A program made the translations under genes and the position numbers. The notes below the pieces were generated by a model that searched no databases, was not told the origin of the DNA, and was given only the letters and a program-made list of their open reading frames with translations. Of a stretch of DNA of 34,386 bases, positions 414-26,507 are shown in pieces (within the stretch, counting starts at the first letter, position 1; each line of letters starts with the position of its first letter). Origin of the DNA: Deltaproteobacteria bacterium (GTDB taxonomy: Bacteria; Desulfobacterota; Desulfuromonadia; Geobacterales; DSM-12255); NCBI GenBank assembly GCA_021849045.1, contig JAJZTK010000026.1:1-34386 (forward strand), written 5' to 3'.

Positions 414-536
414 ATTGTTATTAGTCTCAAGGGATGGATATTCGGTTAATTGTGTCGAGTTTCATGGAAAGTTCCTTTCACAGTCCCTCTCGATGACCAA
501 AAGATGTCGCGGAAGCATCTGACAGCGGAGGTTGCA

Positions 537-5695: not shown

Positions 5696-6508
5696 CTAAG
5701 GCGAAAGGGGTGATTCCACCGCCGCTCTGGCGGGTGGCGTGAAGGACTCACCAGCCCTCAGGATCACGGCTTCGATTCCGGAATAATGGGCGAGCTCCAA
5801 GGCGAAGTCCCTGTGACGCTCCAACATGAAGTTTAGGGGAGGAAATCTCTGGATGAGACCTCTCATTCCCTCGGGGTCTGCGGCGTCCTCCGGATTCGGG
5901 AACCAGTGATACGGGATAGCGTGCTTGACTCCAAGGGCCTTGGCAGCAAAGGCTCCCTCGGCAGGCCCCATGGTAAAAATGTCCCCGGTCGAAAGTACGG
6001 CAAGGTCGGGCTTGTAGAGGGGCTTGATGAGGGTTTCCATCTCAGAGGTATAAGAAGTATCGCCCGAGACGTAGATGGTGTACCCATTCTCCAGCCGGAT
6101 GACGAAGCCGGCGGGGACCCCGGCCGACTCGAAAGAGCGCTCCTCTCCGAAGCTAGAGCTGTGGTTGGCAGTGACGAGTGTCACCCTGATGCCGTTGAGA
6201 AGCGAGTAGGTGCCGCCAAAATTGAGGGGAAATACATTGGATGCCCGCCCTGCAAACTCTTTTAAGAAGTGCTCGTACTGGACCACGCCCATCACCCGTC
6301 TGTTTGCCTTCAGCAGCTCCTTAAAGCCCAGACTATGATCAAAGTGCGCGTGTGAACAGAGCACCAAATCCACGTCCTCCCACTTCTGGGGTGTCTGCCA
6401 CTCCTTCGGGCATGTAGGGTTTCCCGCGATCCAAGGGTCGACGACGATGACCTTACCTTTTTCAGTCTTGATCCGGAGCATACTATGGCCAAGAAGTCTA
6501 ATCTCCAT
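5696..6508 (-). CDS. Metal-dependent hydrolase, metallo-beta-lactamase fold (UPF0173-like)
   Basis: A 270-aa protein with the metallo-beta-lactamase fold. It shows an early LGHSMLRI strand, the metal motif SHAHFDH (around 72-78), TANHSSSFGE, SGDTSYTSEM and AIPYHWFP, all typical of UPF0173/UlaG-like hydrolases that bind two metal ions. No signal peptide. The exact reaction is unknown; thioester or lactone hydrolysis fits the neighbours but is speculation. GAGGAGAG precedes the ATG at 6508. Its first codons overlap the 3' end of a truncated livH in another frame, so it now sits at the end of the minus-strand operon beginning at 17650. A weak stem (CTACCT/AGGTAG, 5651-5671) lies downstream. Confidence 0.8.
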   Translation of the reverse strand: MEIRLLGHSMLRIKTEKGKVIVVDPWIAGNPTCPKEWQTPQKWEDVDLVLCSHAHFDHSLGFKELLKANRRVMGVVQYEHFLKEFAGRASNVFPLNFGGTYSLLNGIRVTLVTANHSSSFGEERSFESAGVPAGFVIRLENGYTIYVSGDTSYTSEMETLIKPLYKPDLAVLSTGDIFTMGPAEGAFAAKALGVKHAIPYHWFPNPEDAADPEGMRGLIQRFPPLNFMLERHRDFALELAHYSGIEAVILRAGESFTPPARAAVESPLSP

Positions 6509-6884
6509 TTGGTCTCTCCTCTTTGTGTGGGTCCTTCCCCCATAGCAGCATGGCCAGCCCGCGGATCAGAATGCTGCCGCCGATGGTGATGATGATCATG
6601 TTGATGGCGGAAGGGCGATGGAGCGGCCTTATGGCGAGGCGTTCGAAAAGGAAACCTGCCAGGGTGGAGGCGGCCACGGCGCAGGTTATCGCCAGCCAGA
6701 TCGGGAGTTTGACCAGCTCCAGGGGAAAGACCTTCAGCATCCCTCCCAGCATGACGAACTCATCCTGAGCAAAGTTGATGATGCCGGTGGCGTTGTAGAT
6801 GATGGAAAACCCGATGCCGATCAGGGCATAGATTGCCCCGTTAGACATGCCGGACAGCGTGTACTGAAGCATCTCAAACTGCAT
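6498..6884 (-). pseudogene. livH: Truncated livH-type ABC permease (N-terminal 128 aa only)
   Basis: The frame starts with a good ribosome site (GGAGG, 6 nt) and encodes MQFEMLQYTLSGMSNGAIYA, then the typical LivH beginning with hydrophobic helices and NFAQDEFVMLGG. Homology stops after LLWGKDPH, where a normal LivH of about 290 aa would continue. The last eight residues (KEERPNGD) are simply the ribosome-site region of the hydrolase gene read in another frame. A deletion has therefore joined livH directly to the hydrolase gene. livM, livG and livF are absent here, so the transporter cannot be functional from this locus unless other subunits complement it. The product would hold only three or so membrane segments. 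Confidence 0.85.
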
Positions 6885-6931
6885 GAGGTACCTCCGATGA
6901 TCGGTGAAGCCAGCGACAGGTTCAGCTCAAA

Positions 6932-6966
6932 GGGAGCCGGCAGATTGCCGTGATCTGCCGGCTCCC
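6932..6966 (-). terminator. Strong intercistronic stem-loop after livK
   Basis: GGGAGCCGGCAGAT (6932-6945) and ATCTGCCGGCTCCC (6953-6966) form a perfect 14-bp stem with a 7-nt loop. On the minus strand it is followed by only three T residues. It lies between livK and livH and may terminate or attenuate transcription, or protect the 3' end of an abundant binding-protein mRNA. Confidence 0.6.
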
Positions 6967-6991
6967 GGCTAAAATGGGATCGATGGGTGGT

Positions 6992-8134
6992 TTATTTGGC
7001 GATGGCCCAATCCCCTTTGGTGATGCGAACCATTTCGAAGGCAGAGTGGTCGAGACCGTTGTGGTCCCTAGGGGACATGTTGAAGATGCCAGAGACGCTC
7101 ACCACCTTGCTAGCGTGTTCAATGCCGTTTCTGATCTGTTCCGGCGTATGGCCGTACCTTTTGATGGCGTTGGCGATGAGCATAAAGGCGTCATAGGCGT
7201 AACCGCCGAAGGTTGATGCCTCGTCGTGGAACGCCTTACGGTAACCGAGATCGTACTCCCTAAGGAGACTCGCCTGGGGGTCCGACTTGGGAAGGACTTC
7301 GTAGATCGCCAGCTTCCCTGCTGGAAGGATCACCCCTTCGGCGGCGTCTGCGCCTGCCAGTTGGATGTACTTTTTGGAGGCGACGCCATGGCTCATGTAG
7401 AGAGGGACTTTGATGCCGAGCTGCCTGATGTTCCTCGTGATCACGGCAGGACCGGGGTTGGTCCCCCAGCAGATGATGGCGTCCGGCTTGATGCCCCGGA
7501 TCTTGGTGAGCTGCGCGGTCATGTCGGTGTCTTTGGGACCATAGAGCTCGTCTGCCACGATGCGGAACCCTTTCTGGGTGGCCATCGCCTTGAGCTGTTC
7601 GCGGCCGGAGGCGCCGAACCCGTCGGTGACAGTCAGAAGGGCGATGGTCTTCTGACTCTTTGCGGACATGTAGTTCAGGATCTTCTCCACCGCTACATGG
7701 TCGTTGGCCGGGGTCTTGAAGACCCAGCGCTTCACCGGGTCAATGATCTTGATGCTGGCGCCGCAGGATATCATCGGGACCTTCTCCCTCTCCGCCACGG
7801 GGATGACCGCCATACTTTCGCCGGTGGTGGTCGGGCCAAGGATGACGCTCACCTTGTCGTCCTTGATCAGTTTGGTGGCGAGCTGGACCGCTTTGGTGGC
7901 GTCACCGCCGGTGTCGTAGCTGACGGCCTCGAGCTTCATGCCGTCTATACCGCCGCTGTCGTTGATCCTCTTCACCAGCATGTCGAAGGTCTTCTTACCG
8001 GGGTCCCCAAGAAAGGAGGCTGGACCGGTTACGGCAAACAATCCACCGATTCTGATCGTGCCGGCGGCAAAAGCAGTGCCATAGAGAAAAATCGCCATCA
8101 TTCCCAAAACTGCGCCCGCGATACACCTTTTCAT
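6992..8134 (-). CDS. livK: LivK-type periplasmic substrate-binding protein (ABC transporter)
   Basis: A 380-aa Peripla_BP_6-family protein. The start MKRCIAGAVLGMMAIFLYGTAFA is a Sec signal peptide with probable cleavage after residue 23. The mature protein begins TIRIGGLFAVTGPASFLGDPGKK, with the family's GPTTTGESMAVIPVAE and YAYDAFMLIANAI segments. GGGAGG lies 7 nt before ATG 8134; longer in-frame starts would hide the signal peptide. Family members bind branched-chain amino acids, but in anaerobic aromatic degraders relatives bind aromatic acids (for example the hba and cou systems of Rhodopseudomonas). The cognate permease next door is truncated. The ligand cannot be told from sequence. 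Confidence 0.88.
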   Translation of the reverse strand: MKRCIAGAVLGMMAIFLYGTAFAAGTIRIGGLFAVTGPASFLGDPGKKTFDMLVKRINDSGGIDGMKLEAVSYDTGGDATKAVQLATKLIKDDKVSVILGPTTTGESMAVIPVAEREKVPMISCGASIKIIDPVKRWVFKTPANDHVAVEKILNYMSAKSQKTIALLTVTDGFGASGREQLKAMATQKGFRIVADELYGPKDTDMTAQLTKIRGIKPDAIICWGTNPGPAVITRNIRQLGIKVPLYMSHGVASKKYIQLAGADAAEGVILPAGKLAIYEVLPKSDPQASLLREYDLGYRKAFHDEASTFGGYAYDAFMLIANAIKRYGHTPEQIRNGIEHASKVVSVSGIFNMSPRDHNGLDHSAFEMVRITKGDWAIAK

Positions 8135-8299
8135 CGTAGACCTCCCGTCCGTTTGTTGGACTGACTTTCCCATTGAACCTCGAACCCGCCAATGCAGGTG
8201 AGACATTTGTTGGAGCAGCATTCATGCCGCGTCCAGCTGTCATCGTGGCAAGAAGGCCCACTCCTGCAGGGTTGTCTCATCCCTCCCTTCAGGATTGCC

Positions 8300-9289
8300 T
8301 CATGAAGGCTTTTCGTTTCCGGGGTGCCGCCAGCCGTTTCCTGCGGCTTTGGCCTCGATCGCCTTGACCAAGCCGCGGATCATGCTGTTGTACGGAGTGG
8401 GAACGCCGACCTGCGTACCGTATTCCACAATCTTCCCGTTGATATAGTCGATCTCGGTTCGACGCCCCGCCTCGATGTCCTGCAGCATGGACGGCTTCAT
8501 GTTTCCTGCGTTCTTGATGTAGTTAAGGCTGTAGGAGTAGAAGCCGGTGCCGAGGATAAATTCGCTCGCCCGGGCCACCGCGATCCCCTCCCTGATCATG
8601 GCGTCAACCAGTTCGAAGAGGACCGGGTCCTTCACCGTCTCGACGATGGTGTTGCCGGTCACTGCGCAAATCGCCATCATGCAGGAGTTGAGCACTGTCT
8701 TGCGCCAGACCATGTCCCCGATCCGGTCGGTATGGAGCGTGTCGAGCCCGCAGTCGGTGAATGCCTTGCAGATAGCAACGGCGGCGTCCGCCGAATACGG
8801 ATCGAGTTCCTGGAGATAGTTAGGCCGGTGGTGGAACGCCACCTTGACATGGCAGGAACTGAGCGGCATACAGCCGTAGTTGACGATCCCCCGCATGACG
8901 TGCCTGGCCCCGAGCTTTTGGGCCAGCTCAAGTTCGGTGTCGATGCCGTTTTGCCAGCTGACGACATAGCGCCCTTCGCCGATAACACCCTCCAGGGCTG
9001 AGGCGACCACGGGGAGCGCGGTGGCCTTCACGGTGACGATGACGACGTCGGGGGGATCGTTGATAAGATCGTCAATCCGGGTGGTCACCTTTGCCACGCA
9101 CCCCTGCAGGTTGTCGGCCCCTTCAATGATAATCCCGGGGTTCAGGGCCGGCTCCAGCAGAGCGGGGATTACGTCGCAGAGGGTGACCTGGTAACCACCC
9201 TTGGCAAGGAAGGCGGCGACCACCCCGCCGACGGGGCCGGCGCCGATCACGGCAAATTTTTTCGGTTTATAGCTGGATGGTTCTTTCAT
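8300..9289 (-). CDS. Ketopantoate-reductase-family 2-oxo-acid reductase
   Basis: A 329-aa PanE/ApbA-family enzyme. The N-terminal NADP site is FAVIGAGPVGGVVAAFLAKGG (a GxGxxG variant). The second-strand region is VKATALPVVASAL, the C-terminal domain has the catalytic Lys region DMVWRKTVLNSCMMAICAVTG, and EIDYINGKIVEYG is a family hallmark. These enzymes reduce a 2-oxo acid to the (R)-2-hydroxy acid. Ketopantoate is the classic substrate, but family members also act on branched or aryl 2-oxo acids. ATG 9289 is chosen for its AGGAG site. It lies just after iorB in the operon, so a 2-oxo acid shared with IorAB is a reasonable inference. Confidence 0.82.
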   Translation of the reverse strand: MKEPSSYKPKKFAVIGAGPVGGVVAAFLAKGGYQVTLCDVIPALLEPALNPGIIIEGADNLQGCVAKVTTRIDDLINDPPDVVIVTVKATALPVVASALEGVIGEGRYVVSWQNGIDTELELAQKLGARHVMRGIVNYGCMPLSSCHVKVAFHHRPNYLQELDPYSADAAVAICKAFTDCGLDTLHTDRIGDMVWRKTVLNSCMMAICAVTGNTIVETVKDPVLFELVDAMIREGIAVARASEFILGTGFYSYSLNYIKNAGNMKPSMLQDIEAGRRTEIDYINGKIVEYGTQVGVPTPYNSMIRGLVKAIEAKAAGNGWRHPGNEKPS

Positions 9290-9350
9290 AGCGTGCGCTC
9301 CTGTAAGTATGATGGAGGTTGCGGGCGGCATCACGCCACCCGCTTCTGGA

Positions 9351-9923
9351 TCAGCCCGCAGCGCCGCCGCGTAGGGCGCTCAGGTTCACCTCAACGCCTT
9401 TCCCCTTTGAGAGCGTCTTGACCACCCCATCGATCACCTTCGCATCGAGCGGGACGTTTTTGATGACGGAGCCGACCATGACCATGTTGACCGCCCTGAC
9501 GTCCCCCGCCTTGTTGGCAATGGAGAGGGCATCGATGGCGTGGGAGTTAGTGCAGCAGCGCACGATCTGCTCCTCGACATCCTTCGGGTAGACGGCCATC
9601 CCGGAGGCGACTGTACTCGGGTTGATGGTCCCCGTGTTGTAGACGAGCCTCCCGCCCGGCTTGAGGAAGTGGACGTACCGCAATGCCTCCAGAGGCTCGA
9701 AGGCGATGAGGAGGTCTGCGGTGCCGGCAATCACGGCGGGGGAGTAGACCTTGTCCCCGATCCGGACGAAGGAGGTGACGCTCCCGCCGCGCTGGGCCAT
9801 GCCGTGCACTTCGTTTTGTTTGGCGTCCAGGCCGCTGGCGAGGGCGCTTTCGGCAAAGACCTTGGAGGCCAGGAGGACCCCCTGCCCGCCGACTCCAGAG
9901 ATAACGATATTGAAGATGTTCAT
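9351..9923 (-). CDS. iorB: Indolepyruvate:ferredoxin oxidoreductase, beta subunit
   Basis: A 190-aa gamma-domain subunit of the 2-oxoacid:ferredoxin oxidoreductase family. It begins NIVISGVGGQGVLLASKVFAE, the typical IorB start, followed by NEVHGMAQRGGSV, which contacts the thiamine cofactor. It works with IorA to convert aryl pyruvates plus CoA to arylacetyl-CoA, CO2 and reduced ferredoxin. It starts 15 nt after the iorA stop and is translationally close-coupled. Confidence 0.93.
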   Translation of the reverse strand: MNIFNIVISGVGGQGVLLASKVFAESALASGLDAKQNEVHGMAQRGGSVTSFVRIGDKVYSPAVIAGTADLLIAFEPLEALRYVHFLKPGGRLVYNTGTINPSTVASGMAVYPKDVEEQIVRCCTNSHAIDALSIANKAGDVRAVNMVMVGSVIKNVPLDAKVIDGVVKTLSKGKGVEVNLSALRGGAAG

Positions 9924-9938
9924 AGTTCCCTCCGCTCC

Positions 9939-11681
9939 TTAACCTTTGGACATCGCGTCGAATTTGCAAAGCTGAGAACAGACTCCGCATCCGTTGCAGA
10001 TATTTGGGTCGATGGCGACCTTCGGTTTGTCCCCGCAATCTCTGAGACCCAGAGCCACGCAGGCGGCCTTGAGGCAGGCTCGGCACCCGGTGCACGTCTC
10101 GGAGTCCACCTTGAGCGGCGGGTTTTTCACCCGGTAGCGGAGAATGCAGGGGTTCCGGTCCACCAGAACGTATGGGCCCGGGGTCTCCAGCCCCTTCTTG
10201 ATGGCCTCCTCGGTAGCCACCAGGTCGTAGGAGTTGATCTCCACGACGTTTTCGACCCCCATCACCTTCGCCAGCTCCATAATGTTCACCTGCTTGGCCG
10301 GATTCCCCGTCAGTACCTGGCCGCTCCCTGGGTTCTCTTGTCCGCCGGTCATACCGGTGGTCCGATTGTCCATGACGATGACCAGGGCGTTGCCGTTGTT
10401 GTAGACCAGGCTAAGAAGGCCGGTCATGCCGGAGTGGAAAAAGGTGGAGTCCCCAAGGACAGCCACCGGCTTCTCCGCCCTCCCGGCTACGGCGTTCACC
10501 TTGGCCATGCCGTGGGCCGCGCTGATACTCGCCCCCATGCAGATGCAGGTATGCATCGCGCCGATCGGTGGAAGCGCTCCCAGCGTGTAGCAGCCGATGT
10601 CGCCGGAGACGAAGACCTTCAGTTTGGCGAGGATCGAGAAGAGACCGCGATGGGCACAACCGGGGCAGAAGATTGGGGGACGCTGCGGGAGGTTCTGAAC
10701 CGGCGCCATCGCGGAGGTCTCCTTCTCGCCGGCCGCCTTCCGGATGATCTCGGAATCGACCTCCAGGCAGTAAGAGATCGGTCCTTTCCCCAGATCGATC
10801 CGGATCCCCATTGCCCTGATCTGCTCCTCGAAGATGGCGTCCATCTCCTCGATGATCATGAACCTTTGCACCTTACCGGCAAACTCACGGATCATCTCCT
10901 CCGGGAGCGGGTGGACCAGACCGAGCTTGAGCACCGAGGCGTCGGGGAATGCCTCGCGGACGTGCTGATAGGCTACGCCGGAGGTGAGAATCCCGATTTC
11001 GGTTCCCCTCATCTCAACACGGTTCAGGGGGGTCGTCTCGGCGTACTCCTTCAGCTTGAGAAGACGTTCCTCGACCTGAATGTGCTTGATCTTGCCGTAG
11101 TTGGGGAGCATGACGTTCTTGGGAACGTTCTTAACCCACTCGCCGACTTTCGGGGTTATCTTCTCCCTCTGCTCGACGTACCCTTTGGCATGGGCGGTTC
11201 GGGTGGTCATGCGCAGGAAGACCGGCGTGTCGAACTGCTCGGAGAGCTCCAGCCCCGTCCGCACGAAGTCGTATGTCTCCTGCGAGTCGGAAGGGTCTAA
11301 CATCGGGACCTTGGCGAACTTTGCGTAGTTGCGGCTGTCCTGCTCGTTCTGGGACGAGTGCTGTCCCGGGTCGTCCGCCACCATGACGATGAAACCCGCG
11401 CCGACCCCTGTGTAAGAAAAGCTCATCAGCGCGTCGGCGGCGACGTTGACGCCGACGTGCTTCATGGTGGCGAGCGCCCTGCCGCCGGCTATGGAGGCGC
11501 CCATGGCTGATTCGAAACCGACCTTCTCGTTGGGAGCCCACTCGCAGTAGACCGCTCCCAGACGCGCCATTTCCTCCAGTACCTCGGTGCTTGGCGTCCC
11601 GGGATAACCGGAGGCGAAAACGCCGCCGGCATCGCCAAAACTCAAAGCGATTGATTCGTTTCCGGAAATTATTCTTTTCAT
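9939..11681 (-). CDS. iorA: Indolepyruvate:ferredoxin oxidoreductase, alpha subunit
   Basis: A 580-aa subunit. The N-terminal pyrimidine-binding domain starts RIISGNESIALSFGDAGG and has GYPGTPSTEV. The thiamine-diphosphate domain has FCPGCAHRG (339-347), GDIGCYTLG and VLGDSTFFHSG (408-418) with MDNRTTGMTGGQENPG. Two C-terminal [4Fe-4S] ferredoxin motifs follow: C530/533/536 with C541, and C562/565/568/572. The length matches IorA. The enzyme is a cytoplasmic oxidoreductase for indolepyruvate, phenylpyruvate and p-hydroxyphenylpyruvate. ATG 11681 has GGGGGAG 8 nt upstream; a GTG at 11690 overlaps the site. In this operon its reduced ferredoxin could feed the activase at 16814-17650, which is inference. 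Confidence 0.95.
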   Translation of the reverse strand: MKRIISGNESIALSFGDAGGVFASGYPGTPSTEVLEEMARLGAVYCEWAPNEKVGFESAMGASIAGGRALATMKHVGVNVAADALMSFSYTGVGAGFIVMVADDPGQHSSQNEQDSRNYAKFAKVPMLDPSDSQETYDFVRTGLELSEQFDTPVFLRMTTRTAHAKGYVEQREKITPKVGEWVKNVPKNVMLPNYGKIKHIQVEERLLKLKEYAETTPLNRVEMRGTEIGILTSGVAYQHVREAFPDASVLKLGLVHPLPEEMIREFAGKVQRFMIIEEMDAIFEEQIRAMGIRIDLGKGPISYCLEVDSEIIRKAAGEKETSAMAPVQNLPQRPPIFCPGCAHRGLFSILAKLKVFVSGDIGCYTLGALPPIGAMHTCICMGASISAAHGMAKVNAVAGRAEKPVAVLGDSTFFHSGMTGLLSLVYNNGNALVIVMDNRTTGMTGGQENPGSGQVLTGNPAKQVNIMELAKVMGVENVVEINSYDLVATEEAIKKGLETPGPYVLVDRNPCILRYRVKNPPLKVDSETCTGCRACLKAACVALGLRDCGDKPKVAIDPNICNGCGVCSQLCKFDAMSKG

Positions 11682-11762
11682 AGATGGCACTCCCCCTAGA
11701 TATGGCTTTACGTTGCAGCCTTGGCCGCCGAAGCTTTCCTTCCCGCCGGAGAATAAGGGCGG

Positions 11763-13103
11763 TTACAGGTATTTCAGCTCCTTTCCCCGCTCCTTCAGTT
11801 CCGCCCGGAACTTCGGGTGCGCGATATTGATGAGCGCCTGGCAGCGCTGGCGAATCGTCTTCGCGTACAGGTCCGCAACGCCGTACTCGGTCACCACGTA
11901 CCGGACGTGGTTGCGGCTGGTCACCACCCCGGATCCATGTTTCAGAAGGGGAACGATCCGGCTCACCACCGTTTCGTCTTTCATCTTGGTCGTGCTCGGC
12001 ATGGTGATGACCGAGAGTCCCCCCTTGGACCGGGAGGCGCCGTAGACAAAGTCGAGCTGGCCCCCAACCGCGGAGTAGAGCTTGGGGCCGATGCTGTCGG
12101 CACAGATCTGCCCGGTGAAATCGACCTCGATCGCGGCGTTAATCGAGACCATCCGGTCGTTTTGCATGATCACGAACGGGTCGTTGATATGCTCAGTCCG
12201 GTGCATCTCGATCATCGGGTTGTTGTGAGCCCAGTCGTAGAGGCGCCTGGTCCCGAGCAGGAAGCCGCAGACGATCTTCCCCTTGTGGAGGGTCTTGTGG
12301 GAGCAGTTCACTACCCCCGCGTCGACCAGATCTATCACCCCGTCGGAGATCAGTTCCGAATGTATCCCCAGATCCTTCTTCTTGAAGAGATGCTTCAACA
12401 CCGCGTCGGGAAGCGAGCCGATCCCCATCTGCATGGTGGCGCCGTCCGGGACCAGCTCCGCAATGTGCCGTGCCAGCTGCTCGACGACCTCCGGGTCCCC
12501 CTCCTCTCCCATGTGCCTTTCCGGGAGGACGCCGTCAGCCTCGATGATCTTTGTCATCCGTGAGACGTGGAGGAAGGTATCCCCAAGGGTCCGCGGCACC
12601 AGCGAGTTCACCTGGGCAATCACTTTCTTGGCCGACTCGGCGGCCGTAAGGGCGAGCCCCGCCTCCGTCCCCAGCGAGCAGAACCCCTTGTCGTCCGGGG
12701 GGGCTACGTTGATGATGGCCACGTCGAGCGGAAGATGGCCGTTTTTGAACAACAGGGGGAACTCCGAGAGAAGGACCGGGGTGAAATCGGCGCGCCCGTC
12801 GTGAATGGCCGGCCGGACGTTGGGGCTGATGAACATGGAGTTGATCCGGAGGTGCCCGTCCATTTCGGGCGCAACGTAGTCCGACGGACAGATGGTCACC
12901 GCCTGGCAAATTTCGACGTTCTTAAGGTTCGGCGCGCGTTTCACCAGGGCCTCCAAAAGCTGCGCCGGTACCGAGGCGTTTCCGGTCAGAAAAAGGCGGT
13001 CGCCGGAGGTCACCTCCTTGACGGCGTCGTCGGCGGTAGTCACTCGTGAAGCGTATATCTCCCGCCAGTCTTTGGTTTTTTTGAGCGTCAGTGTAGCGGT
13101 CAC
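11763..13103 (-). CDS. Acetyl-CoA hydrolase/CoA-transferase family (Cat1/4-hydroxybutyrate CoA-transferase-like)
   Basis: A 446-aa family I CoA-transferase. Features are SGDRLFLTGNASVP near the start, the oxyanion/CoA segment MQMGIGSLPDAV (225-236) and the catalytic Glu250 in HSELISDGV, which forms the glutamyl-CoA thioester in this family. The length (~440) fits butyryl/4-hydroxybutyrate:acetate CoA-transferases rather than the ~510-aa succinate group. I prefer the GTG at 13103 with AAGGAG 6-7 nt upstream; an ATG at 13121 has no site. The likely role is moving CoA from acetyl-CoA or another acyl-CoA to the pathway acid. A 250-bp gap upstream contains only short inverted repeats (CAGCGGC/GCCGCTG, 13199-13217, and ACTCTG/CAGAGT, 13279-13294). 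Confidence 0.87.
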   Translation of the reverse strand: MTATLTLKKTKDWREIYASRVTTADDAVKEVTSGDRLFLTGNASVPAQLLEALVKRAPNLKNVEICQAVTICPSDYVAPEMDGHLRINSMFISPNVRPAIHDGRADFTPVLLSEFPLLFKNGHLPLDVAIINVAPPDDKGFCSLGTEAGLALTAAESAKKVIAQVNSLVPRTLGDTFLHVSRMTKIIEADGVLPERHMGEEGDPEVVEQLARHIAELVPDGATMQMGIGSLPDAVLKHLFKKKDLGIHSELISDGVIDLVDAGVVNCSHKTLHKGKIVCGFLLGTRRLYDWAHNNPMIEMHRTEHINDPFVIMQNDRMVSINAAIEVDFTGQICADSIGPKLYSAVGGQLDFVYGASRSKGGLSVITMPSTTKMKDETVVSRIVPLLKHGSGVVTSRNHVRYVVTEYGVADLYAKTIRQRCQALINIAHPKFRAELKERGKELKYL

Positions 13104-13344
13104 TTTATTCTCCTTTCTCATTCGATGAAGAGTCGTTCGATGGAACCCCTTGCCCCCCTTCCACCACTCCTTGCGGGAGGAGGACAGGAGAGGCGCCACA
13201 GCGGCAGATGGCCGCTGAACTCAGACCACAGCTTCTCCCCGCATCCCAGCAACGGAGAGGGACTAATCGAGGTCTTTTACTCTGGGATCAGAGTCTGCAG
13301 CGGTGTCAGGATCTTCCTTGCTCGCTTGCCCCCTACTTCGCAAA

Positions 13345-13370
13345 GGAGAATCCTTAGATCCTGATTCTCC
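13345..13370 (-). terminator. Short stem-loop at the end of the acyl-CoA synthetase gene
   Basis: GGAGAATC (13345-13352) and GATTCTCC (13363-13370) are perfect inverted arms that enclose the stop codon of the synthetase. The minus strand continues with TTTG. It may be a weak terminator or a processing site before the 250-bp gap. Confidence 0.35.
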
Positions 13371-15441
13371 CGTCGACTGCATAGACGGAGTCGGAGAAGG
13401 CGAGGATCGGGTTCAGGTCAATCTCCTTGATCATCGGGAGGTCGGTGAGGAGCATGGAGACGCGCTGGATCAGCTTCAGAACCCTTTCCTTGTCGATCCC
13501 CTTGTCACCCCGCACCCCATCAAGCAGGGCCGCGGCCTTGATCCTGGCCAGCATCTCCTGGGCTTCCACCCGGGTCACGGGTGCGATTTTGAACACTACG
13601 TCTTTCAGGACCTCGACGTAGATCCCTCCCAGCCCGAACATCACCAGATGCCCCAGATTCCGCTCTGCGGTGGCACCGACGATCAGCTCGCGCCCCCCGG
13701 GAAGGAATTTCTGCACGAAGAACTTGAGGCCACCGTAGCAGCCGAGCCGCAGCTGCATATCCTCCACCGCGGCGCGGACGGCGGCAGCGTCCTTCAGATT
13801 CACAGCCACCCCGCCCATATCGCTCTTGTGGTCGATCTCCTCGCAGTCCACCTTCACCACCACCGGGAAACCGATCAATTCGGCGGCAACGACCGCCTCG
13901 ACCGCAGTCTCCACAATTCTCCATTCGGCGACCGGGACGCTGTAGGCCCCGAAGATGCCGTAAACCTCGGCGGCAGTGAGAACGCTGCGTCCCTCTCGCT
14001 GCGCACCCTCCACGATTTGCTTGGCTTTGGCAGGATTCACGTCGCTGAAGCTTTCGGGAACCCCGATATCCCTTCTCTTAAGCCTGCCGTACCTTGCCAG
14101 CGACCCGAGCACCCTGGCGGCGGCGCTCGGGTTGGTGTAGCAGGGGACTCCCCCCTCTCGGAGAATCTGGCTGGTGACCTGGAAATTTTCTAGCACCAGG
14201 TTGGTCATGAAGTTGCAGACGATCGGCTTCTTCCCCTGACGGCTCACCTCGACGATCTCCTGCGCTATGGCATGGGTATCGGCAAAGGGGGCGGTTACGA
14301 AGTTCATGAAGACGCTGTCTATACCCTCCTCCGCCATCAGCACGTCAAGGGCGGCCCGGAAGTGCTTGCTGCTCGCGGTTGCCACCACGTCTATCGGATT
14401 TTCCAGCGCCGCCTCAGGGAGCAGAGCCTCCTTCAGCTTCGCGATTGAGGTATCAGACAGGCGCGGGACGTTCAGCCCGCACGTCACCAGCACGTCAGTG
14501 GCGATGACCGCAGGGCCGCCGGTATTGGTGATCACCCCCACACGGTTCCCGGCGGGGATCGGCTGGGTCTCGAAGGCCATGGCGGCGCGCACCATTTCCT
14601 CCTCGTCCGAGAAGGAGAGTATCCCGGTTTTCTCGAAGATGAGCTCGGTGGCGATGTCGACTCCGGCAAAGGAGCCGGTGTGGGAGGAGGCTGCCTTGGC
14701 CCCCCGCTCGGTACGCCCCGCCTTCATGGCAAGGATCGGCTTTCGGGGCGCCACCTGTTTGGCCGCTTCAAGGAATGCCCTCGGGTTGGCAAACCCTTCG
14801 GTATAGAGGAGAATGGCCTTGGTCCCCGGGTCAGAGCCGTAATAGCTCACCACCTCCGAGATGGAGACGTCGCAAGCATTGCCATTGGAGGCGTAGAGGC
14901 GCATGCCGATCCCAAGGTCGAAAAGGGCCTGCATAATGATGGAGCCGACCCCGCCGCTCAGGGCCACTACAGAGATGCCGCCCGGCTTGGGATAGGTGTA
15001 GGTGAAGTTGCAGTAGGCCTTGAAGGTTGGATCGGAGTTGATGATCCCCTGGCAGTTGGGGCCGAAGATTCGAACCCCGTACTCCTTGGCGTTTCCCAGG
15101 AACACCCTCTGGAGTCGGTCCCCTTCCTCCCCCAGTTCAGAAAAGCCGGCCGAGTTGATGATTACCGCCTTGACCCCCTTGGTGCCGCAATCGACAATGG
15201 CCTGGGGGACCTGCGTGCTCGGGATGATCACATGGGCCAGATCGATCGGCCCCGGGACCTCCTCCAGCGATCGGTAGGCCTTGAGCCCGCGCACCTCGGG
15301 CGCAGTCGGGTTGATGGGATAGATCTTTCCCGTGTAGCCGTAATGTTGCAGGTTTTTTATGATGACGTTGCCGATGGAAAGCTCTTTGGTGGAGGCGCCA
15401 ACGATGGCGATCGCTTTCGGCTTAAAGAGTGGATCCAGCAT
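13354..15441 (-). CDS. ADP-forming acyl-CoA synthetase (fused alpha-beta)
   Basis: A 695-aa fusion of the alpha (CoA-binding, ligase-CoA) and beta (ATP-grasp) halves of NDP-forming acyl-CoA synthetases. The N-terminal CoA-binding domain is KAIAIVGASTKELSIGN, FGPNCQGIIN follows, and the phospho-acceptor His254 lies in ASSHTGSFAG. The ATP-grasp domain occupies about 480-695 (GFPVVVKVDC, HKSDMGGV, GRELIVGA, EIDLNPI). The reversible reaction is acyl-CoA + ADP + Pi to acid + CoA + ATP. With IorAB this is the classic route by which some anaerobes make ATP from arylacetyl-CoA. The start at 15441 lies 1 nt after the upstream stop, with GAGGAGG before it; coupling is certain in layout. Acid range cannot be read from sequence. 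Confidence 0.9.
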   Translation of the reverse strand: MLDPLFKPKAIAIVGASTKELSIGNVIIKNLQHYGYTGKIYPINPTAPEVRGLKAYRSLEEVPGPIDLAHVIIPSTQVPQAIVDCGTKGVKAVIINSAGFSELGEEGDRLQRVFLGNAKEYGVRIFGPNCQGIINSDPTFKAYCNFTYTYPKPGGISVVALSGGVGSIIMQALFDLGIGMRLYASNGNACDVSISEVVSYYGSDPGTKAILLYTEGFANPRAFLEAAKQVAPRKPILAMKAGRTERGAKAASSHTGSFAGVDIATELIFEKTGILSFSDEEEMVRAAMAFETQPIPAGNRVGVITNTGGPAVIATDVLVTCGLNVPRLSDTSIAKLKEALLPEAALENPIDVVATASSKHFRAALDVLMAEEGIDSVFMNFVTAPFADTHAIAQEIVEVSRQGKKPIVCNFMTNLVLENFQVTSQILREGGVPCYTNPSAAARVLGSLARYGRLKRRDIGVPESFSDVNPAKAKQIVEGAQREGRSVLTAAEVYGIFGAYSVPVAEWRIVETAVEAVVAAELIGFPVVVKVDCEEIDHKSDMGGVAVNLKDAAAVRAAVEDMQLRLGCYGGLKFFVQKFLPGGRELIVGATAERNLGHLVMFGLGGIYVEVLKDVVFKIAPVTRVEAQEMLARIKAAALLDGVRGDKGIDKERVLKLIQRVSMLLTDLPMIKEIDLNPILAFSDSVYAVDGRIRI

Positions 15442-15442
15442 G

Positions 15443-16690
15443 TTATTTCCCCTCCTCAAGCTGCTCTATGAAAGCCTCGATGTTGGTCTTGGTCTGTTCG
15501 TCCGAGATGCAGCGCATGTCAGTGACATCACCGGAGATCACCAGGGCGGGTATCCCGGTTTTCATCTCCAGTCGCTGGGGGAGGCCGTAGTGTGTGTTCG
15601 CGTTGTGGGGACAGGTCTTGGAGTCGTGGAAGACGATCCCGTCGACCCGGAACTTTTCCAGCATTTCCTGGAGGTGCTTTTCCTTGTAAACGTCGGCGCG
15701 GACGATGAAGAGTTCGAGGTAAGCCTTGGCCATGCTCCGGATCGGATCGTCCGGGTCGAGCGCCGGGAAAATCCAGCTGCTGCCGTAGGAGGATGCAACG
15801 ATGTTCGCCTTAAGGCCGGCAAAGATCTCCGAGTGCTGGCGTAGACGGCCCCAGACCGGCAGCCCTTCCCAGAAAAGCCGCAGCCTCTCCCCATCTACCG
15901 CAGCGATTCCGGAGCCAACCCGCTCCTTCATCTCGGAAAGGAGCAGCCGGTAATAGGCCACTGCCTCCCGGGTCCCGCGCAGGACCACGGCCGGCCCCAT
16001 GTGAATTGCGCTGTCGAAGAAGGTGAGCGGCGCCGGCGAGGCGGTCGCCGTCTCCAGTACCTCCTTCCAGATGTCGGTGCACTGCCTGGAGAGGGAGACC
16101 ACCTCCCTGAGCCGGGCCAAGTCCAGCTTCTGCTCGGAGATCGAGACAAGGGTGGGGATCAGCGCCTCTATCTGGCGGGTGACATCGTCGATATGCGCGG
16201 CGGTCACGTCGCTTATGCATTTGGGGGAGGAAACGCCGATGCATGGGACGCCGAGCGTTCTGGAGTACCAGGCGAACCAGTCCTGAACGTCTCTGCATTG
16301 GTTCGTGTTGTAGACCAGGACGTCCGGTTTGGGTACGCTCTTGATGCCGGGGTAGGCCTTGGAAAGCGGTGTGATCCCCTTGAGATAGGCACCGATGTCT
16401 GAGGTCAGGTAGGAGCAGATATCCGGGGAGTAGCCGATGGCGGTCGCTGTTGGTATCACCTCGTTGGAAGTCCGCGTGGCGCCGAGCATGGCCGCGTGGT
16501 TTTCAGGGAAGTACACCACGAATCCCATCGCCCTCAGCAACTCCACGGGTCCGACGCTCGTACACCAGGCGACCTTCTGACTTCCAGTTGTGGCCGCCTG
16601 GTTCAGGCCGTAAAAGTAATCGGCCATGATCTTGTTCATCTGGTCGGTGGTCTGAATCTTCTTTCTGACCGTTTTTTTGTCATCCATCAT
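15443..16690 (-). CDS. Benzoyl-CoA reductase / 2-hydroxyacyl-CoA dehydratase family subunit
   Basis: A 415-aa member of the HgdB/BadE/BcrB family. It has KVAWCTSVGPVELLRAMGF and FPENHAAMLGA as in the BadE-like branch. The cysteines at C92 (DICSYLTSD), C132 (NTNQCRD) and C360 (KTCPHNA) correspond to the usual [4Fe-4S] ligands as I recall the family. Others are at 43, 150, 158, 204 and 394. Such subunits receive single high-energy electrons from an ATP-driven activase. Normal enzymes pair two different subunits of this fold, and only one is encoded here, so it may be a homodimer, have its partner elsewhere, or be a double-cubane-type protein. The paired start ATGs at 16690/16687 follow AGGGGG. 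It is coupled by 1 nt to the synthetase. Confidence 0.85.
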   Translation of the reverse strand: MMDDKKTVRKKIQTTDQMNKIMADYFYGLNQAATTGSQKVAWCTSVGPVELLRAMGFVVYFPENHAAMLGATRTSNEVIPTATAIGYSPDICSYLTSDIGAYLKGITPLSKAYPGIKSVPKPDVLVYNTNQCRDVQDWFAWYSRTLGVPCIGVSSPKCISDVTAAHIDDVTRQIEALIPTLVSISEQKLDLARLREVVSLSRQCTDIWKEVLETATASPAPLTFFDSAIHMGPAVVLRGTREAVAYYRLLLSEMKERVGSGIAAVDGERLRLFWEGLPVWGRLRQHSEIFAGLKANIVASSYGSSWIFPALDPDDPIRSMAKAYLELFIVRADVYKEKHLQEMLEKFRVDGIVFHDSKTCPHNANTHYGLPQRLEMKTGIPALVISGDVTDMRCISDEQTKTNIEAFIEQLEEGK

Positions 16691-16813
16691 TGTTTCCCCC
16701 TGTGTAAGCGCGCCCCGTAACCTGGGCACGCCATGAAGTGATACGCATTCCTTGAATTGAAACCGTTCTCTTGCGGATAATGACTCGACAATTGATGTTC
16801 AAAAGGCACAATT

Positions 16814-17650
16814 TTATTGCAATGCCCAGATAAGTTTCGCGCCTCCCCACCCAGGTTCAGCCGGAGGATCTCCTTCTCCCTCAACGGCATACAGTGCCGC
16901 GCCGACCGCGCCGGCCAGCTGTGGGAAATCAGGAACTAGCACCGGCCGCTCAATCATTTCCTGGGCCATCTCGACCAGATAAGGGTTGTGCTCCACCACG
17001 CCTCCGGTCATTGTCACCTGCTCGGTTAGAGCGTCCATCTCCAGCACGCGTCGGATCACCGAATAAAAGATCCCCTTGACGATGTCGCTCACCTTCTTGC
17101 CGTGCCGGATGCTTTCCAGAACTTCCGTGGCGGAGAAAACCGTACAGAAACTCCCGAGCTTGATCATCTCCCGTGATTGTTGGGCTAAGGCGTTCATCTC
17201 TTCCAACTGCAGATCGAGACGCCCTGCCATCTCCTCGAGGAAGGCGCCGGTTCCGGCCGCGCACTTACGGTTCATTTTGAAACTACCGCGTCGGCCAGCA
17301 GCATCAAGGTTAATGACCTTGTTGTCCTGGCCACCGATGTCGATGATGGTGATCGCTTGGGGAAAATAGTGGTAACACCCTTTGGCTAGGCAGCCGATTT
17401 CTGTCTTGCTCCTATCGGTGATAAATGAGACGTTGGTCCGACCGTAACCGGTAGAAACGGCGCCGGCGATCTCCTTCCGGGTTCCTCCGGCCATATCGAG
17501 TGCAACATCCAAGCAGGCCTTGGCGGTTGCGGCGAAATTGGTTCCCGACTTCTTAACCGCGTGACCGACCAGTTGCCGATCGGCATTGAGGAGCGCAACC
17601 TTTGTCCGAGATGATCCCATGTCGAGACCGACGAAAAACCGCTTTGACAT
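16814..17650 (-). CDS. ATP-dependent activase (BadF/BadG/BcrA/HgdC family)
   Basis: A 278-aa ASKHA-fold ATPase that hydrolyses ATP to push one low-potential electron into a 2-hydroxyacyl-CoA dehydratase or benzoyl-CoA reductase-like partner. It shows the phosphate loops FVGLDMGSSRTK (6-17) and IIDIGGQDNKVI (102-113), with the bridging-cluster cysteines C130 (NRKCAAGTGAFLE) and C169 (GSFCTVFSATEV). A homodimer sharing one [4Fe-4S] cluster is expected, fed by ferredoxin. Its length is near HgdC (~260). ATG 17650 has AAGGAG 7 nt upstream. First gene of the operon, 123 bp before the dehydratase gene, downstream of a -24/-12 promoter. Only one activase is present, which resembles dehydratase systems more than the class I reductases with two. 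Confidence 0.92.
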   Translation of the reverse strand: MSKRFFVGLDMGSSRTKVALLNADRQLVGHAVKKSGTNFAATAKACLDVALDMAGGTRKEIAGAVSTGYGRTNVSFITDRSKTEIGCLAKGCYHYFPQAITIIDIGGQDNKVINLDAAGRRGSFKMNRKCAAGTGAFLEEMAGRLDLQLEEMNALAQQSREMIKLGSFCTVFSATEVLESIRHGKKVSDIVKGIFYSVIRRVLEMDALTEQVTMTGGVVEHNPYLVEMAQEMIERPVLVPDFPQLAGAVGAALYAVEGEGDPPAEPGWGGAKLIWALQ

Positions 17651-17729: not shown

Positions 17730-17745
17730 TGCACTTGTTGTGCCT
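17730..17745 (-). promoter_or_regulatory. Sigma-54 (-24/-12) promoter of the activase operon
   Basis: The minus strand reads AGGCACAACAAGTGCA. It retains GGCAC and TGCA at the exact -24/-12 spacing, with mismatches at T1, G7 and one T of the TTGC. Initiation near 17718 gives a leader of about 68 nt to the ATG at 17650. The upstream palindromes at 17840-17986 support it. Confidence 0.65.
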
Positions 17746-17839: not shown

Positions 17840-17857
17840 CCGACCATATTTGGTCGG
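17840..17857. promoter_or_regulatory. Palindromic operator 1, candidate enhancer site
   Basis: CCGACCATATTTGGTCGG: perfect 6-bp arms around an ATATTT centre. It lies about 100 bp upstream of the -24/-12 promoter at 17730-17745. The same ACCATATTTGGT core returns at 17956-17969. Confidence 0.65.
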
Positions 17858-17955: not shown

Positions 17956-17986
17956 AACCATATTTGGTTGGGCCGTCCATATATGG
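17956..17986. promoter_or_regulatory. Palindromic operators 2 and 3, candidate enhancer sites
   Basis: AACCATATTTGGTT (17956-17969) and CCATATATGG (17977-17986) are perfect palindromes sharing the CCATAT core of operator 1; their centres are 19 bp apart, near two helical turns. A pair of sites with such phasing is typical for an NtrC-type activator hexamer. The most likely ligand is the activator at 18114-20081, which is inference. Confidence 0.6.
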
Positions 17987-18113: not shown

Positions 18114-20081
18114 TTAAGATTGAGCGTTGCTCCTTCTGATTCCTAACTTTTTGATTCTCGCGTGAAGTGTCGTCGGTTTCATCCCGAGGATTTCAGCTGC
18201 TCCGTTTTTTCCACGAATGCGCCACCCTGTTTTATCCAGCACTGAGGTGATATGGCTTCGTTCCAGGCTTTCGATGGTCATGGGGGGGGCGGCAGTTGTG
18301 CCGGAACCGTCCGGCACGTCAACAACGAGCGTCGTACCTTTGCTAAGGATCATGGCCCTTTCAACCAGATTCCGTAGCTCCCTGATATTGCCGGGCCAAA
18401 GGTAGCGCTCCATGGCATCCATGTTTTTTTTGGGGATACGCTCTATCGCCTTACCGAAGGTCTGACTGAACTCCTCGATCATTGCCCAGACAAGAAACGG
18501 GATATCCTCCCGGCGCTCGCGCAAAGGAGGGACTGAAATCGGAAAGACATTCAGACGATAATACAGGTCTTCGCGGAACCTCCCTTCCCTGACGGCCTGA
18601 GCAAGGTCTCGATTGGTCGCCGCAATGATCCGCACATCTACATCAACCGGCTTCGGACTCCCCAACCGTTCAAACTGCCCTTCCTGAAGCACGCGAAGCA
18701 GCTTCGATTGCTGCTCTAGAGGTAATTCACCAATTTCATCCAAAAAAATGGTTGAGCAGTTGGCAGCTTCAAAACGGCCGATTTGACTCGACACCGCCCC
18801 CGTGTAGGCTCCCTTTTCGTATCCGAAAAGCTCAGCCTCGGTAAGCGTTGCCGGTAATGCTGCGCAATTCACCTTGATCATGGCGCGGGCCTTGCGGTTG
18901 CTTTGGTTATGAATGGCTCTTGCTATTAGCTCCTTCCCCGTTCCCGTCTCACCCAAAATAAGCACAGTGGCATCGGTCTTGGCGACCTGTCCCAACTGTA
19001 ACAAAACGTTTTGAATACCCTCGGACTTCCCGATGATCTCATCATGCTTATATTCGATGCTGATCTGATCGCGCAGATAGAGGTTTTCCGCCTCCAGGCG
19101 GTCTTTTAACCGCTGGATTTCAGCCAGTGCATTCTGAATCTTCTCGTCGGCCCGTTTCCGTTCCAAGGCATTGGCGAAAATTTCCCACAAGAGGCGCAGT
19201 CTTTGGATCAGTTCTTCGGGCCATTCTCTTTTGGCCCGGTAAGAAACGAAGACGATTGTGCCCACGACTGTTCCGCCTGAACTGGTCGGAATGAACAAAA
19301 TCGATTTGATTCCGCCTTGGTCCTTACAAAATTTCTTCTCGCGCCAATATATGTCAGGCAATTCGTCGACATCGGAAACCCTGAAAATCTCTCCTTTGCG
19401 GAGCAAATTAATCCAAACGGGGATCAAACCGTCAATATCGAGAGGTGGCCGTTTGATTCTCGGTAAAGCAAAGGAATGCGTGAGTAGCATCCGTCCGGGT
19501 AGCACCTCCCAAATGCTGCTCCTATCAAATCCCAAGAACTCGACGACCTTTTGCAGGCCTCGCTCTATCTTGATGTCCACTTCGCTAATGGGCACGTTGA
19601 TAAATGTAGTCGATACATCCAGGAGCAGAGCTTCGATCTTCAGGCGTTCTGTCTGCTCCGCCTCATTTACCTTCTGTTCTGTTACATCATGGACAATGAG
19701 ACAGTAACCAATCATCGTTCCGTCTTCTGTTTTGAGACAATGACAGCTGATCAGCCAGGAGACGGCTTTCGACGGCCGTCCCGGAAATGTGTTGTGCACA
19801 ACAACCTTGCACTCCACAAAGGGCCGGTCATCAATGGTCTTCCGCGAAAGCAGGGGCTCGATGGCCGATGCAACCTGCAGATCAAGTTCCCTAACCGTTT
19901 TGCCAATATGTTGTTCTGCCGGAATGCCGTCAATCGATGCCATTCGATCGTTAACATGGATATAGCGTAAATCCGGATCGAGTATCGAGACCCCAAACTG
20001 GACCTGCTCACCCAAATGCTCGGGTCTGATTGATTTTGCTGTAATTAAATCAGCATCGCTTGCTGTTTTTCTAAGCGTCAT
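18114..20081 (-). CDS. Sigma-54 dependent transcriptional activator (PAS-GAF-AAA+-Fis)
   Basis: A 655-aa one-component activator. It has a PAS domain (~25-137; VSILDPDLRYIHVNDRMASIDG), a GAF domain (~145-305), a coiled linker (~308-342) and an AAA+ domain (~346-575). The AAA+ domain has Walker A GETGTGKE (377-384), a GAYTGA sigma-54 loop (424-429, the common Tyr variant) and Walker B FLDEIGE. The Fis-type helix-turn-helix covers ~604-650. The layout is that of ligand-sensing FhlA/HbpR-like regulators. The ligand is unknown; GAF and PAS could bind an aromatic acid or CoA ester. It shares the minus strand with the operon it adjoins, and the ACCATATTTGGT palindromes in the gap make it the likely regulator. 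The ATG at 20081 has only a weak AGGA site. Confidence 0.9.
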   Translation of the reverse strand: MTLRKTASDADLITAKSIRPEHLGEQVQFGVSILDPDLRYIHVNDRMASIDGIPAEQHIGKTVRELDLQVASAIEPLLSRKTIDDRPFVECKVVVHNTFPGRPSKAVSWLISCHCLKTEDGTMIGYCLIVHDVTEQKVNEAEQTERLKIEALLLDVSTTFINVPISEVDIKIERGLQKVVEFLGFDRSSIWEVLPGRMLLTHSFALPRIKRPPLDIDGLIPVWINLLRKGEIFRVSDVDELPDIYWREKKFCKDQGGIKSILFIPTSSGGTVVGTIVFVSYRAKREWPEELIQRLRLLWEIFANALERKRADEKIQNALAEIQRLKDRLEAENLYLRDQISIEYKHDEIIGKSEGIQNVLLQLGQVAKTDATVLILGETGTGKELIARAIHNQSNRKARAMIKVNCAALPATLTEAELFGYEKGAYTGAVSSQIGRFEAANCSTIFLDEIGELPLEQQSKLLRVLQEGQFERLGSPKPVDVDVRIIAATNRDLAQAVREGRFREDLYYRLNVFPISVPPLRERREDIPFLVWAMIEEFSQTFGKAIERIPKKNMDAMERYLWPGNIRELRNLVERAMILSKGTTLVVDVPDGSGTTAAPPMTIESLERSHITSVLDKTGWRIRGKNGAAEILGMKPTTLHARIKKLGIRRSNAQS

Positions 20082-24707: not shown

Positions 24708-26507
<1,800 letters not shown>

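Follow-up and report, generated by a model that had tools for sequence, protein, structure and literature searches.

Gene content and organization of the cluster

The window (the whole analysed stretch of 34,386 nt of contig JAJZTK010000026.1) contains ten genes at 5696-17650, which are separated by gaps of -11 to 154 nt. An initial annotation had described these genes as one minus-strand series without a transaminase, and both points are borne out; the gene families and the enzyme identities that it named are supported by matches in Pfam and NCBIfam. In order, the run encodes the following:

16814..17650, minus strand: ACT, activase (BadF/BcrA-type ATPase) predicted to fire the dehydratase; PF01869; TIGR00241, 203 bits, above cut-off
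15443..16687, minus strand: HGDD, single HGD-D protein, predicted (R)-2-hydroxyacyl-CoA dehydratase of catalytic type; PF06050; ATG at 16687
13354..15441, minus strand: ACD, fused ADP-forming acyl-CoA synthetase, predicted aryllactate (or arylacetate) CoA ligase; CoA_binding_2, Succ_CoA_lig, ATP-grasp_5
11763..13199, minus strand: CoAT, family I CoA-transferase; PF13336 and PF02550; TIGR03948, 316 bits, below cut-off
9939..11690, minus strand: IorA, arylpyruvate:ferredoxin oxidoreductase alpha-like; TIGR03336; ATG at 11681
9351..9923, minus strand: IorB, beta subunit-like; PF01558; IorB models at 171-218 bits, below cut-offs
8300..9334, minus strand: PanE/ApbA-type reductase, predicted to convert a 2-oxo acid to an (R)-2-hydroxy acid; PF02558 and PF08546; TIGR00745, 186 bits, above cut-off
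6992..8221, minus strand: LivK-type substrate-binding protein; PF13458
6498..6884, minus strand: LivH remnant, 128 aa, cut off past about residue 118; 77% identical to the N-terminal part of the 293-aa LivH that is intact on C31 (L009)
5696..6508, minus strand: metallo-beta-lactamase-fold hydrolase, last gene of the run; NF001911, above cut-off

The best equivalog for ACD, 4-hydroxybutyrate-CoA ligase, is matched at 517 bits, which is below its cut-off. IorA falls narrowly short of TIGR03336 (643.5 bits, cut-off 650.9) and IorB does not reach the equivalog threshold of TIGR03334 (171.3 bits, cut-off 205.8); judged by sequence, the pair is IorAB-like, i.e., close kin of indolepyruvate:ferredoxin oxidoreductase IorAB and not called an equivalog. 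Membership of the PanE family does not fix the substrate of the reductase. LivH is intact in L013, and the remnant form is also found in Geobacter argillaceus (L025), where the run is ~99% conserved; the search for the same order in other Desulfuromonadia, proposed in the initial annotation, recovered an identical gene order in this species.

Upstream elements and neighboring genes

Three candidate regulatory elements and a regulatory gene lie upstream of the run:

17731..17745, minus strand: sigma-54 -24/-12-like element AGGCACAACAAGTGC, 95 nt ahead of the activase ATG
17843..17854, minus strand: upstream repeat ACCAAATATGGT, copy 1, possible activator site
17957..17968, minus strand: upstream repeat ACCAAATATGGT, copy 2, possible activator site
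18114..20081, minus strand: PAS-GAF sigma-54 activator, which probably regulates the run; PF00158

Scanned against the sigma-54 consensus, the whole window gave 20 matches against 18.9 by chance, showing no enrichment; the comparison of upstream regions across loci is the only informative promoter evidence. Similar elements occur at -84 to -96 in L025, L014, L015, L018, and L111 and at about -166 in L008 and L016. The repeat is present twice in the window against an expectation of 0.04, and a homologue of the activator, 74% identical, adjoins the related cluster on C57. A molybdenum hydroxylase farther upstream (26543-29949) was considered as proof of a tyrosine route and was rejected, as its best models, the alpha and beta subunits of 4-hydroxybenzoyl-CoA reductase, are matched below cut-off (714 vs 995 and 284 vs 405 bits). 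Since an alpha subunit above cut-off (1211 bits) is encoded elsewhere in the genome, on C245, the link to tyrosine is only circumstantial.

The dehydratase subunit

HGDD and its activase are members of the BCR/HAD radical enzyme superfamily, to which they conform in the HGD-D fold, the BadF/BcrA-family activase, and three cysteines. These cluster ligands (C105, C145, and C373, numbered from 16729) match the active-site [4Fe-4S] cysteines of HadB (C84, C117, and C346) and are kept in 83 of 83 loci, and residue conservation across the HGDD copies is very high. HadB (3o3m_A) is the nearest solved chain. The AF2 model of HGDD gives Z scores of 45.5 to HadB, 44.0 to BzdO, and 31.3 to HadC, so that HadB and BzdO are nearly tied in fold, and in sequence HGDD is closer to HadB (220 vs 158 and 108 bits); on sequence and model, HGDD is assigned to the catalytic, HadB-like type. 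A tree with HadB and MbdO gave very long branches to both, and its branching order at subfamily level was therefore disregarded; the window HGDD clusters in it with L014 (PaaK, ACT8) and L015 (PaaK and beta-oxidation genes).

To our knowledge, all characterised 2-hydroxyacyl-CoA dehydratases have two HGD-D subunits. A second HGD-D subunit was found neither in the run nor in the annotated sister clusters, and the remaining HGD-D proteins encoded in these genomes are not linked to the clusters, with one being of the double-cubane type. A beta subunit acting in trans was considered and rejected: G182 has one other HGD-D protein, which is unlinked and weakly double-cubane-like.

Conservation and sister clusters

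The core of the cluster (HGD-D protein, activase, CoA-activating enzyme, and usually PanE) is shared by 83 sampled loci, with hosts as diverse as Geobacterales, Zixibacteria, Anaerolineae, and Thermoplasmatota; gene calls at related loci were made with a simple ORF script, and their starts are approximate. The initial annotation took the arrangement to be unfamiliar from the Geobacter group, but it is not rare there, with the dehydratase encoded in 42 of 277 Desulfuromonadia genomes. Among the openly licensed papers searched, no description of the arrangement in Geobacter was found; the G. bemidjiensis genome paper discusses benzoate genes close to this locus, and neither its aromatics section nor a term search mentions the cluster.

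Two additional homologous clusters occur in the same MAG (on C57 and C31), and its three HGDDs are 72-73% identical. The C57 order is ACT-HGDD-ACD-thiolase-ECH-HBDH-CoAT-PaaK-IorAB-ACT8-PanE, whereas LivK is a partner in the window and on C31. Thiolase, enoyl-CoA hydratase, and 3-hydroxyacyl-CoA dehydrogenase genes stand beside the dehydratase in C57 and many relatives and, like a phenylacetate-CoA ligase, are absent from the window run, so that the window substrate could differ. Copies of the same thiolase, hydratase, and dehydrogenase occur in L111 both in the HGDD operon and in a neighboring one, which also includes a symporter, a CoA-transferase, and a FadE-type dehydrogenase. The differing partners and the limited HGDD identity would fit a window copy that acts on a non-aromatic 2-oxo or 2-hydroxy acid (e.g., a branched-chain one, cf. 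HadBC on 2-hydroxyisocaproate) or on an indole acid, with only the C57 copy being aromatic, and the ligands of the LivK family include branched-chain amino acids, among others. This reading is unlikely, given the tree placement of the window HGDD, the very high residue conservation across copies, and the preference of IorAB-type enzymes for aryl pyruvates.

Unrelated enzymes swap in for PanE, ACD, and IorAB at homologous loci, which supports the predicted reactions: a GlcD/GlcF-type 2-hydroxy-acid dehydrogenase adjoins HGDD in L058, L067, and L084, loci in which no PanE is seen, ACD is replaced by an AMP-forming ligase, and POR/TPP-type oxidoreductase genes replace IorAB in L071. ACD occurs without IorA in 31 of 48 ACD-bearing loci and therefore follows the dehydratase rather than IorAB, and IorA is present in 13 of 14 loci with PaaK, a CoA-forming ligase. 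The identity given to the ADP-forming synthetase in the initial annotation stands, and ACD is more likely to activate the hydroxy acid than to have the role proposed there, making ATP from arylacetyl-CoA.

Both counts also argue against the Stickland-like split first proposed for this operon, in which arylpyruvate would be partly oxidised by IorAB to arylacetyl-CoA, with ATP made by ACD, and partly reduced via aryllactyl-CoA to a reduced acid. All enzymes named in that scheme are present, and an acyl-CoA dehydrogenase family gene 7 kb upstream (24708-26507) is a possible enoyl-CoA reductase, but the run itself contains no enoyl-CoA reductase/Etf set of the Stickland reductive branch, the sister clusters carry beta-oxidation genes instead, and the host belongs to the Geobacter lineage, which respires. 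In paralogous and homologous clusters, the dehydratase branch meets genes for beta-oxidation (thiolase, hydratase, 3-hydroxyacyl-CoA dehydrogenase) and for benzoyl-CoA ring cleavage; its product is therefore probably not a reduced end product, and such a split appears improbable.

Linkage to benzoyl-CoA ring cleavage

The oah/bamA gene is found in 37 of the 42 Desulfuromonadia genomes with HGDD and in 9 of the 235 without it (genome counts, kinship ignored), and the HGDD-oah distance is 3.8-12 kb in 16 genomes. In L020/L106, oah-had and dch, all above cut-off, run straight into ACT-HGDD-ACD-thiolase-ECH-HBDH-CoAT. Ring-gene linkage was restricted to NCBIfam-confirmed cases, and loose counts based on generic hydratase or alcohol dehydrogenase matches were set aside.

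This tight linkage to oah, had, and dch, the fold near BzdO, and the superfamily and activase partner shared with class I benzoyl-CoA reductases and double-cubane proteins would also suit a minimal ATP-dependent aryl-CoA (benzoyl-CoA) reductase formed by HGDD and the activase in place of a dehydratase. That function is highly improbable, as subunit make-up and genomic partners differ from those of both groups and equivalog cut-offs are not reached (150.5 bits against TIGR02260, cut-off 486.6). One catalytic and one activase subunit are encoded rather than two of each, the sequence is nearer HadB, the catalytic His131 of BzdO is Val in HGDD (though MbdO also lacks the His), a 2-hydroxy-acid oxidoreductase recurs beside HGDD, and AOR-type genes adjoin oah in this genome, as in class II reductase.

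The counterpart in Desulfococcus multivorans

The D. multivorans genome (G293) has the published size of 4,455,399 bp. Its HGDD, activase, PanE, ACT8, and IorAB-like genes occupy 2.791-2.797 Mb, next to the thiolase, two kinase, TRAP, and ligase genes that belong to the published clusters for phenylacetate and phenylpyruvate. This region encodes proteins published as substrate-specific for phenylacetate and phenylpyruvate (PMC5109826), and among the proteins that the main text of that proteomics paper names as detected, the dehydratase does not appear. Between the hydratase/dehydrogenase gene of this region and its copy in the 3-phenylpropanoate operon there are 4 mismatches over 2043 nt, and thiolase identity between the two operons is 73%. 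D. multivorans degrades phenylacetate and phenylpyruvate without the full Pad gene set, its route to benzoyl-CoA being published as unclear, and Desulfobacula toluolica reportedly does so as well (PMC5109826).

Proposed route from aryl-2-oxo acids to benzoyl-CoA

The best explanation, with a probability of about 0.7, is that the run encodes the upper steps by which aryl-2-oxo and aryl-2-hydroxy acids (derived from phenylalanine, tyrosine, and relatives) are channeled anaerobically into benzoyl-CoA, and this route is probably an entry to complete oxidation and not a fermentative split. The 2-hydroxyacyl-CoA logic of the initial annotation is supported, as is its alternative of aryl-2-hydroxy-acid degradation. 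The PanE-type enzyme would interconvert arylpyruvate and (R)-aryllactate, and (R)-aryllactyl-CoA would be formed by ACD (ATP to ADP) and/or the CoA-transferase. The activase, using ATP, would inject one low-potential electron into the [4Fe-4S] center of HGDD, which would then remove water by a ketyl-radical mechanism to give a cinnamoyl-type CoA. Hydratase, 3-hydroxyacyl-CoA dehydrogenase, and thiolase, which the sister cluster C57 of the same genome may supply for the window route, would yield benzoyl-CoA (or 4-hydroxybenzoyl-CoA) and acetyl-CoA. IorAB would connect arylpyruvate with arylacetyl-CoA, and arylacetate could thereby join the route. We tentatively suggest that, in strict anaerobes without Pad genes, reversed IorAB might reductively carboxylate arylacetyl-CoA to arylpyruvate, followed by reduction, activation, and dehydration by a one-subunit (homodimeric) enzyme to cinnamoyl-type CoA and then benzoyl-CoA and acetyl-CoA.

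Comparison with known systems

FldABC/FldI (the phenyllactate dehydratase system of Clostridium sporogenes) and HadBC/HadI (Clostridioides difficile) constitute the Stickland reductive branch and share with the run the predicted order of 2-oxo acid, (R)-2-hydroxy acid, CoA ester, and radical dehydration, as well as an activase and an HGD-D catalytic subunit with the three cluster cysteines of HadB. In contrast to the heterodimers HgdAB, HadBC, and FldBC, the run encodes one HGD-D subunit; it has a PanE-type rather than a D-LDH-type reductase and an ADP-forming ligase with a family I CoA-transferase rather than a family III CoA-transferase, and its predicted product would feed beta-oxidation and benzoyl-CoA formation, whereas theirs is reduced and excreted. 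The lower steps to benzoyl-CoA are the same as in 3-phenylpropanoate/cinnamate beta-oxidation (D. multivorans, Aromatoleum aromaticum), which is entered by acyl-CoA dehydrogenase from arylpropionyl-CoA and not, as proposed here, by aryllactyl-CoA dehydration. The Pad pathway of Thauera and Aromatoleum (phenylalanine/phenylacetate) shares substrates and the benzoyl-CoA product but proceeds by alpha-oxidation to phenylglyoxylate and PadE-type oxidative decarboxylation, and no match to the PadE model above cut-off was found in the 277 Desulfuromonadia genomes. Conversion of phenylpyruvate via cinnamoyl-CoA to benzoyl-CoA has been proposed as a hypothesis for the benzene-degrading culture BzS1 (PMC13416013, 2026); as far as that account extends here, its intermediates are the same, but they serve benzene activation, the candidate genes are different or undetected, and no link is drawn to a conserved HGDD-activase-PanE-IorAB cluster (PMC13416013).

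Significance

The conserved module represents a complete candidate route from phenylacetate and phenylpyruvate to benzoyl-CoA in strict anaerobes and could fill the published gap. A dehydratase built from one HGD-D subunit is predicted, and the module points to a radical 2-hydroxyacyl-CoA dehydratase serving complete oxidation across several phyla. The module would also offer a marker for the anaerobic turnover of aromatic amino acids and arylacetates in sediments and aquifers.

Gene organization and putative promoter region

The ten-gene minus-strand run at 5696-17650 described in the initial annotation is borne out, with order and family assignments as in the window (contig C56 of the 4.33-Mb MAG G000): activase, HGDD, fused ADP-forming acyl-CoA synthetase (ACD), family I CoA-transferase, IorA, IorB, PanE-type reductase, LivK, LivH remnant, and metallo-hydrolase, separated by intergenic gaps of -11 to 154 nt. 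Its Stickland-like interpretation, in which a 2-oxo acid is split oxidatively and reductively, is partly supported and is better replaced by a funnel in which benzoyl-CoA would be formed from aryl-2-oxo and aryl-2-hydroxy acids. The features discussed are:

17650-16814, minus strand: activase
16687-15443, minus strand: HGDD, a single HGD-D protein (predicted (R)-2-hydroxyacyl-CoA dehydratase)
Upstream of the run: PAS-GAF sigma-54 activator
23110-30400, minus strand: upstream group of 4-hydroxybenzoyl-CoA-reductase-like molybdenum hydroxylase, acyl-CoA dehydrogenase, succinyl-CoA:acetate-type CoA-transferase, DUF485, and acetate-type symporter

Scaffold 30 of Geobacter argillaceus is about 99% identical to the run. 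The 128-aa LivH remnant aligns only to the start of an intact permease of roughly 293 aa, and one relative (L013) retains LivK-LivH-LivM; near the contig end (33931-34335) lies the C-terminal part of a second LivK-type binding protein. A -24/-12-like element is located 95 nt 5' of the activase, and comparison of upstream regions places five such elements at -84 to -96 and two more at about -166 in relatives, with none in clusters that lack the sigma-54 activator (e.g., loci L009, L017, and L020); L027 is an exception, having the activator without the element. Two perfect repeats of ACCAAATATGGT occur between the element and the activator (0.04 expected).

Distribution and the HGDD protein

Two more homologous clusters occur in G000 (HGDD 72-73% and IorA 78-79% identical between clusters), one on contig C57 (activase-HGDD-ACD-thiolase-enoyl-CoA hydratase-3-hydroxyacyl-CoA dehydrogenase-CoA-transferase-PaaK-like ligase-IorAB-ACT8-PanE) and one on C31 (activase-HGDD-ACD-CoA-transferase-IorAB-LivKHM, preceded by genes for an acyl-CoA dehydrogenase and for FadB-like and thiolase-like proteins). 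HGDD relatives, 58-80% identical with one at 99%, are found at 80 loci in Desulfuromonadia, other Desulfobacterota, Zixibacteria, Aminicenantes, Anaerolineae, Planctomycetota, Elusimicrobia, and Thermoplasmatota. Archaeal MAG contigs (L041, L044, and L052; Euryarchaeota, Proteinoplasmatales, and Thermoplasmatota) carry an HGDD-ACD-AMP ligase-PanE set, which suggests transfer between domains.

Three cluster cysteines (HadB C84, C117, and C346), together with a serine and a glutamate aligning to HadB S37 and E55, are invariant in 83 loci. The AF2 model of HGDD (mean pLDDT 85) matches HadB at Z 45.5, BzdO at 44.0 (nearly tied), MbdO at 39, a double-cubane protein at 32, and HadC at 31, and HadB is clearly closest by sequence (220 vs 158 and 108 bits); HGDD is therefore a catalytic-type subunit. 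A second HGD-D subunit is not linked to HGDD, and a homodimer, like the double-cubane proteins, would be the natural guess. Elsewhere in G000 (L011, 2-2732, and L012, on contigs C98 and C200), an activase-HGD-D fusion is followed by another HGD-D gene, apparently split across two contig ends.

Roles of the partner genes

At the 57 loci where 9 kb or more of context was available, HGDD is accompanied by activase in 51, ACD in 48, PanE-like in 35, IorA in 20, and PaaK-like ligase in 14. PanE was not seen at L058, L067, and L084, where a GlcD/GlcF-type 2-hydroxy-acid dehydrogenase precedes HGDD; such replacement patterns support the involvement of a 2-hydroxy acid. ACD occurs with IorA at 17 loci and without it at 31, and loci lacking ACD usually have an AMP-forming ligase, which is never found together with the CoA-transferase (0/57). 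On these patterns, ACD more probably ligates CoA to the hydroxy acid than generates ATP. Of the 14 loci with PaaK-like ligase, 13 also have IorA, a pattern suggesting arylacetate entry via arylacetyl-CoA and IorAB; IorAB running as a reductive carboxylase would be a bold prediction, and it may instead work in the oxidative direction. The substrate of the window copy is most likely of phenylalanine or tyrosine type, with branched-chain or indole acids as less likely candidates.

Link to the benzoyl-CoA pathway

At L020, which shares its contig with L106, oah-had, dch (all above NCBIfam cut-offs), activase, HGDD, ACD, thiolase, hydratase, dehydrogenase, and CoA-transferase are arranged in succession on one strand. 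In Zixibacteria (L080), had and oah above cut-off and a dch-like gene come after the cluster. The oah (bamA) gene is present in 37/42 Desulfuromonadia genomes with HGDD vs 9/235 without (Fisher p 6e-32, kinship among genomes ignored), at 3.8-12 kb from HGDD in 16 genomes. In G000, oah on contig C129 adjoins AOR-type genes, as expected for tungsten benzoyl-CoA reductase. PadE, the marker of the known phenylglyoxylate route, had no match above cut-off in 277 Desulfuromonadia genomes.

In genome G182 (L111), copies of one thiolase, hydratase, and dehydrogenase set are present both in the HGDD operon and in an adjacent operon, the latter also containing a CoA-transferase, a DUF485-symporter, and a FadE-type dehydrogenase. 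In the window, a symporter, a CoA-transferase, and an acyl-CoA dehydrogenase occupy the same position past the sigma-54 activator, and the group at 23110-30400 is possibly a corresponding operon for arylpropionate or hydroxyaryl compounds; both alpha and beta of its molybdenum hydroxylase fall below the 4-hydroxybenzoyl-CoA reductase cut-off. Five alpha homologues occur in G000 (contigs C245, C198, C30, and C56), only one above the family cut-off, and that on C198 adjoins a double-cubane-cluster reductase gene. At 32353-33872, an XdhC-type gene overlaps the frame of a downstream protein with no Pfam match, which by eye looks like a YqeB-like molybdenum-hydroxylase maturation factor.

The Desulfococcus multivorans locus

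The HGDD of D. multivorans (2.791 Mb, 58% identical to that of the window) is followed by activase, PanE-like, ACT8, IorB, and IorA, and is preceded by thiolase, response regulator, two kinases, TRAP transporter, and CoA ligases in the same order as the phenylacetate/phenylpyruvate-specific clusters published "at 2.77 Mbp" (PMC5109826). The dehydrogenase, hydratase, and thiolase of those clusters were assigned to phenylglyoxylate formation, the step to benzoyl-CoA was described as unclear, growth on phenyllactate was recorded, and HGDD is not named as detected in the main text (PMC5109826). The hydratase/dehydrogenase genes of the phenylacetate/phenylpyruvate cluster and the 3-phenylpropanoate operon differ at 4/2043 nt (99.7% protein identity), and the thiolases are 73% identical; in the simplest reading, both operons would convert cinnamoyl-CoA into benzoyl-CoA. 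The duplicate 680-aa genes (L117, 10113-12155 and 16550-18592; 2.770 and 2.777 Mb), whose identity stops near the gene ends, would have arisen by recent copying or gene conversion involving the two operons. Beside the window cluster (450-3406), a histidine kinase (RsbRD_N-PAS) is paired with an NtrC-type regulator; a homologous pair (37% and 46%) lies in D. multivorans at 2.807-2.810 Mb (L119), near an oah-like gene.

The families of the parts are already known; what is new is how they are combined, how widely this combination occurs, and how it fits the published gap.
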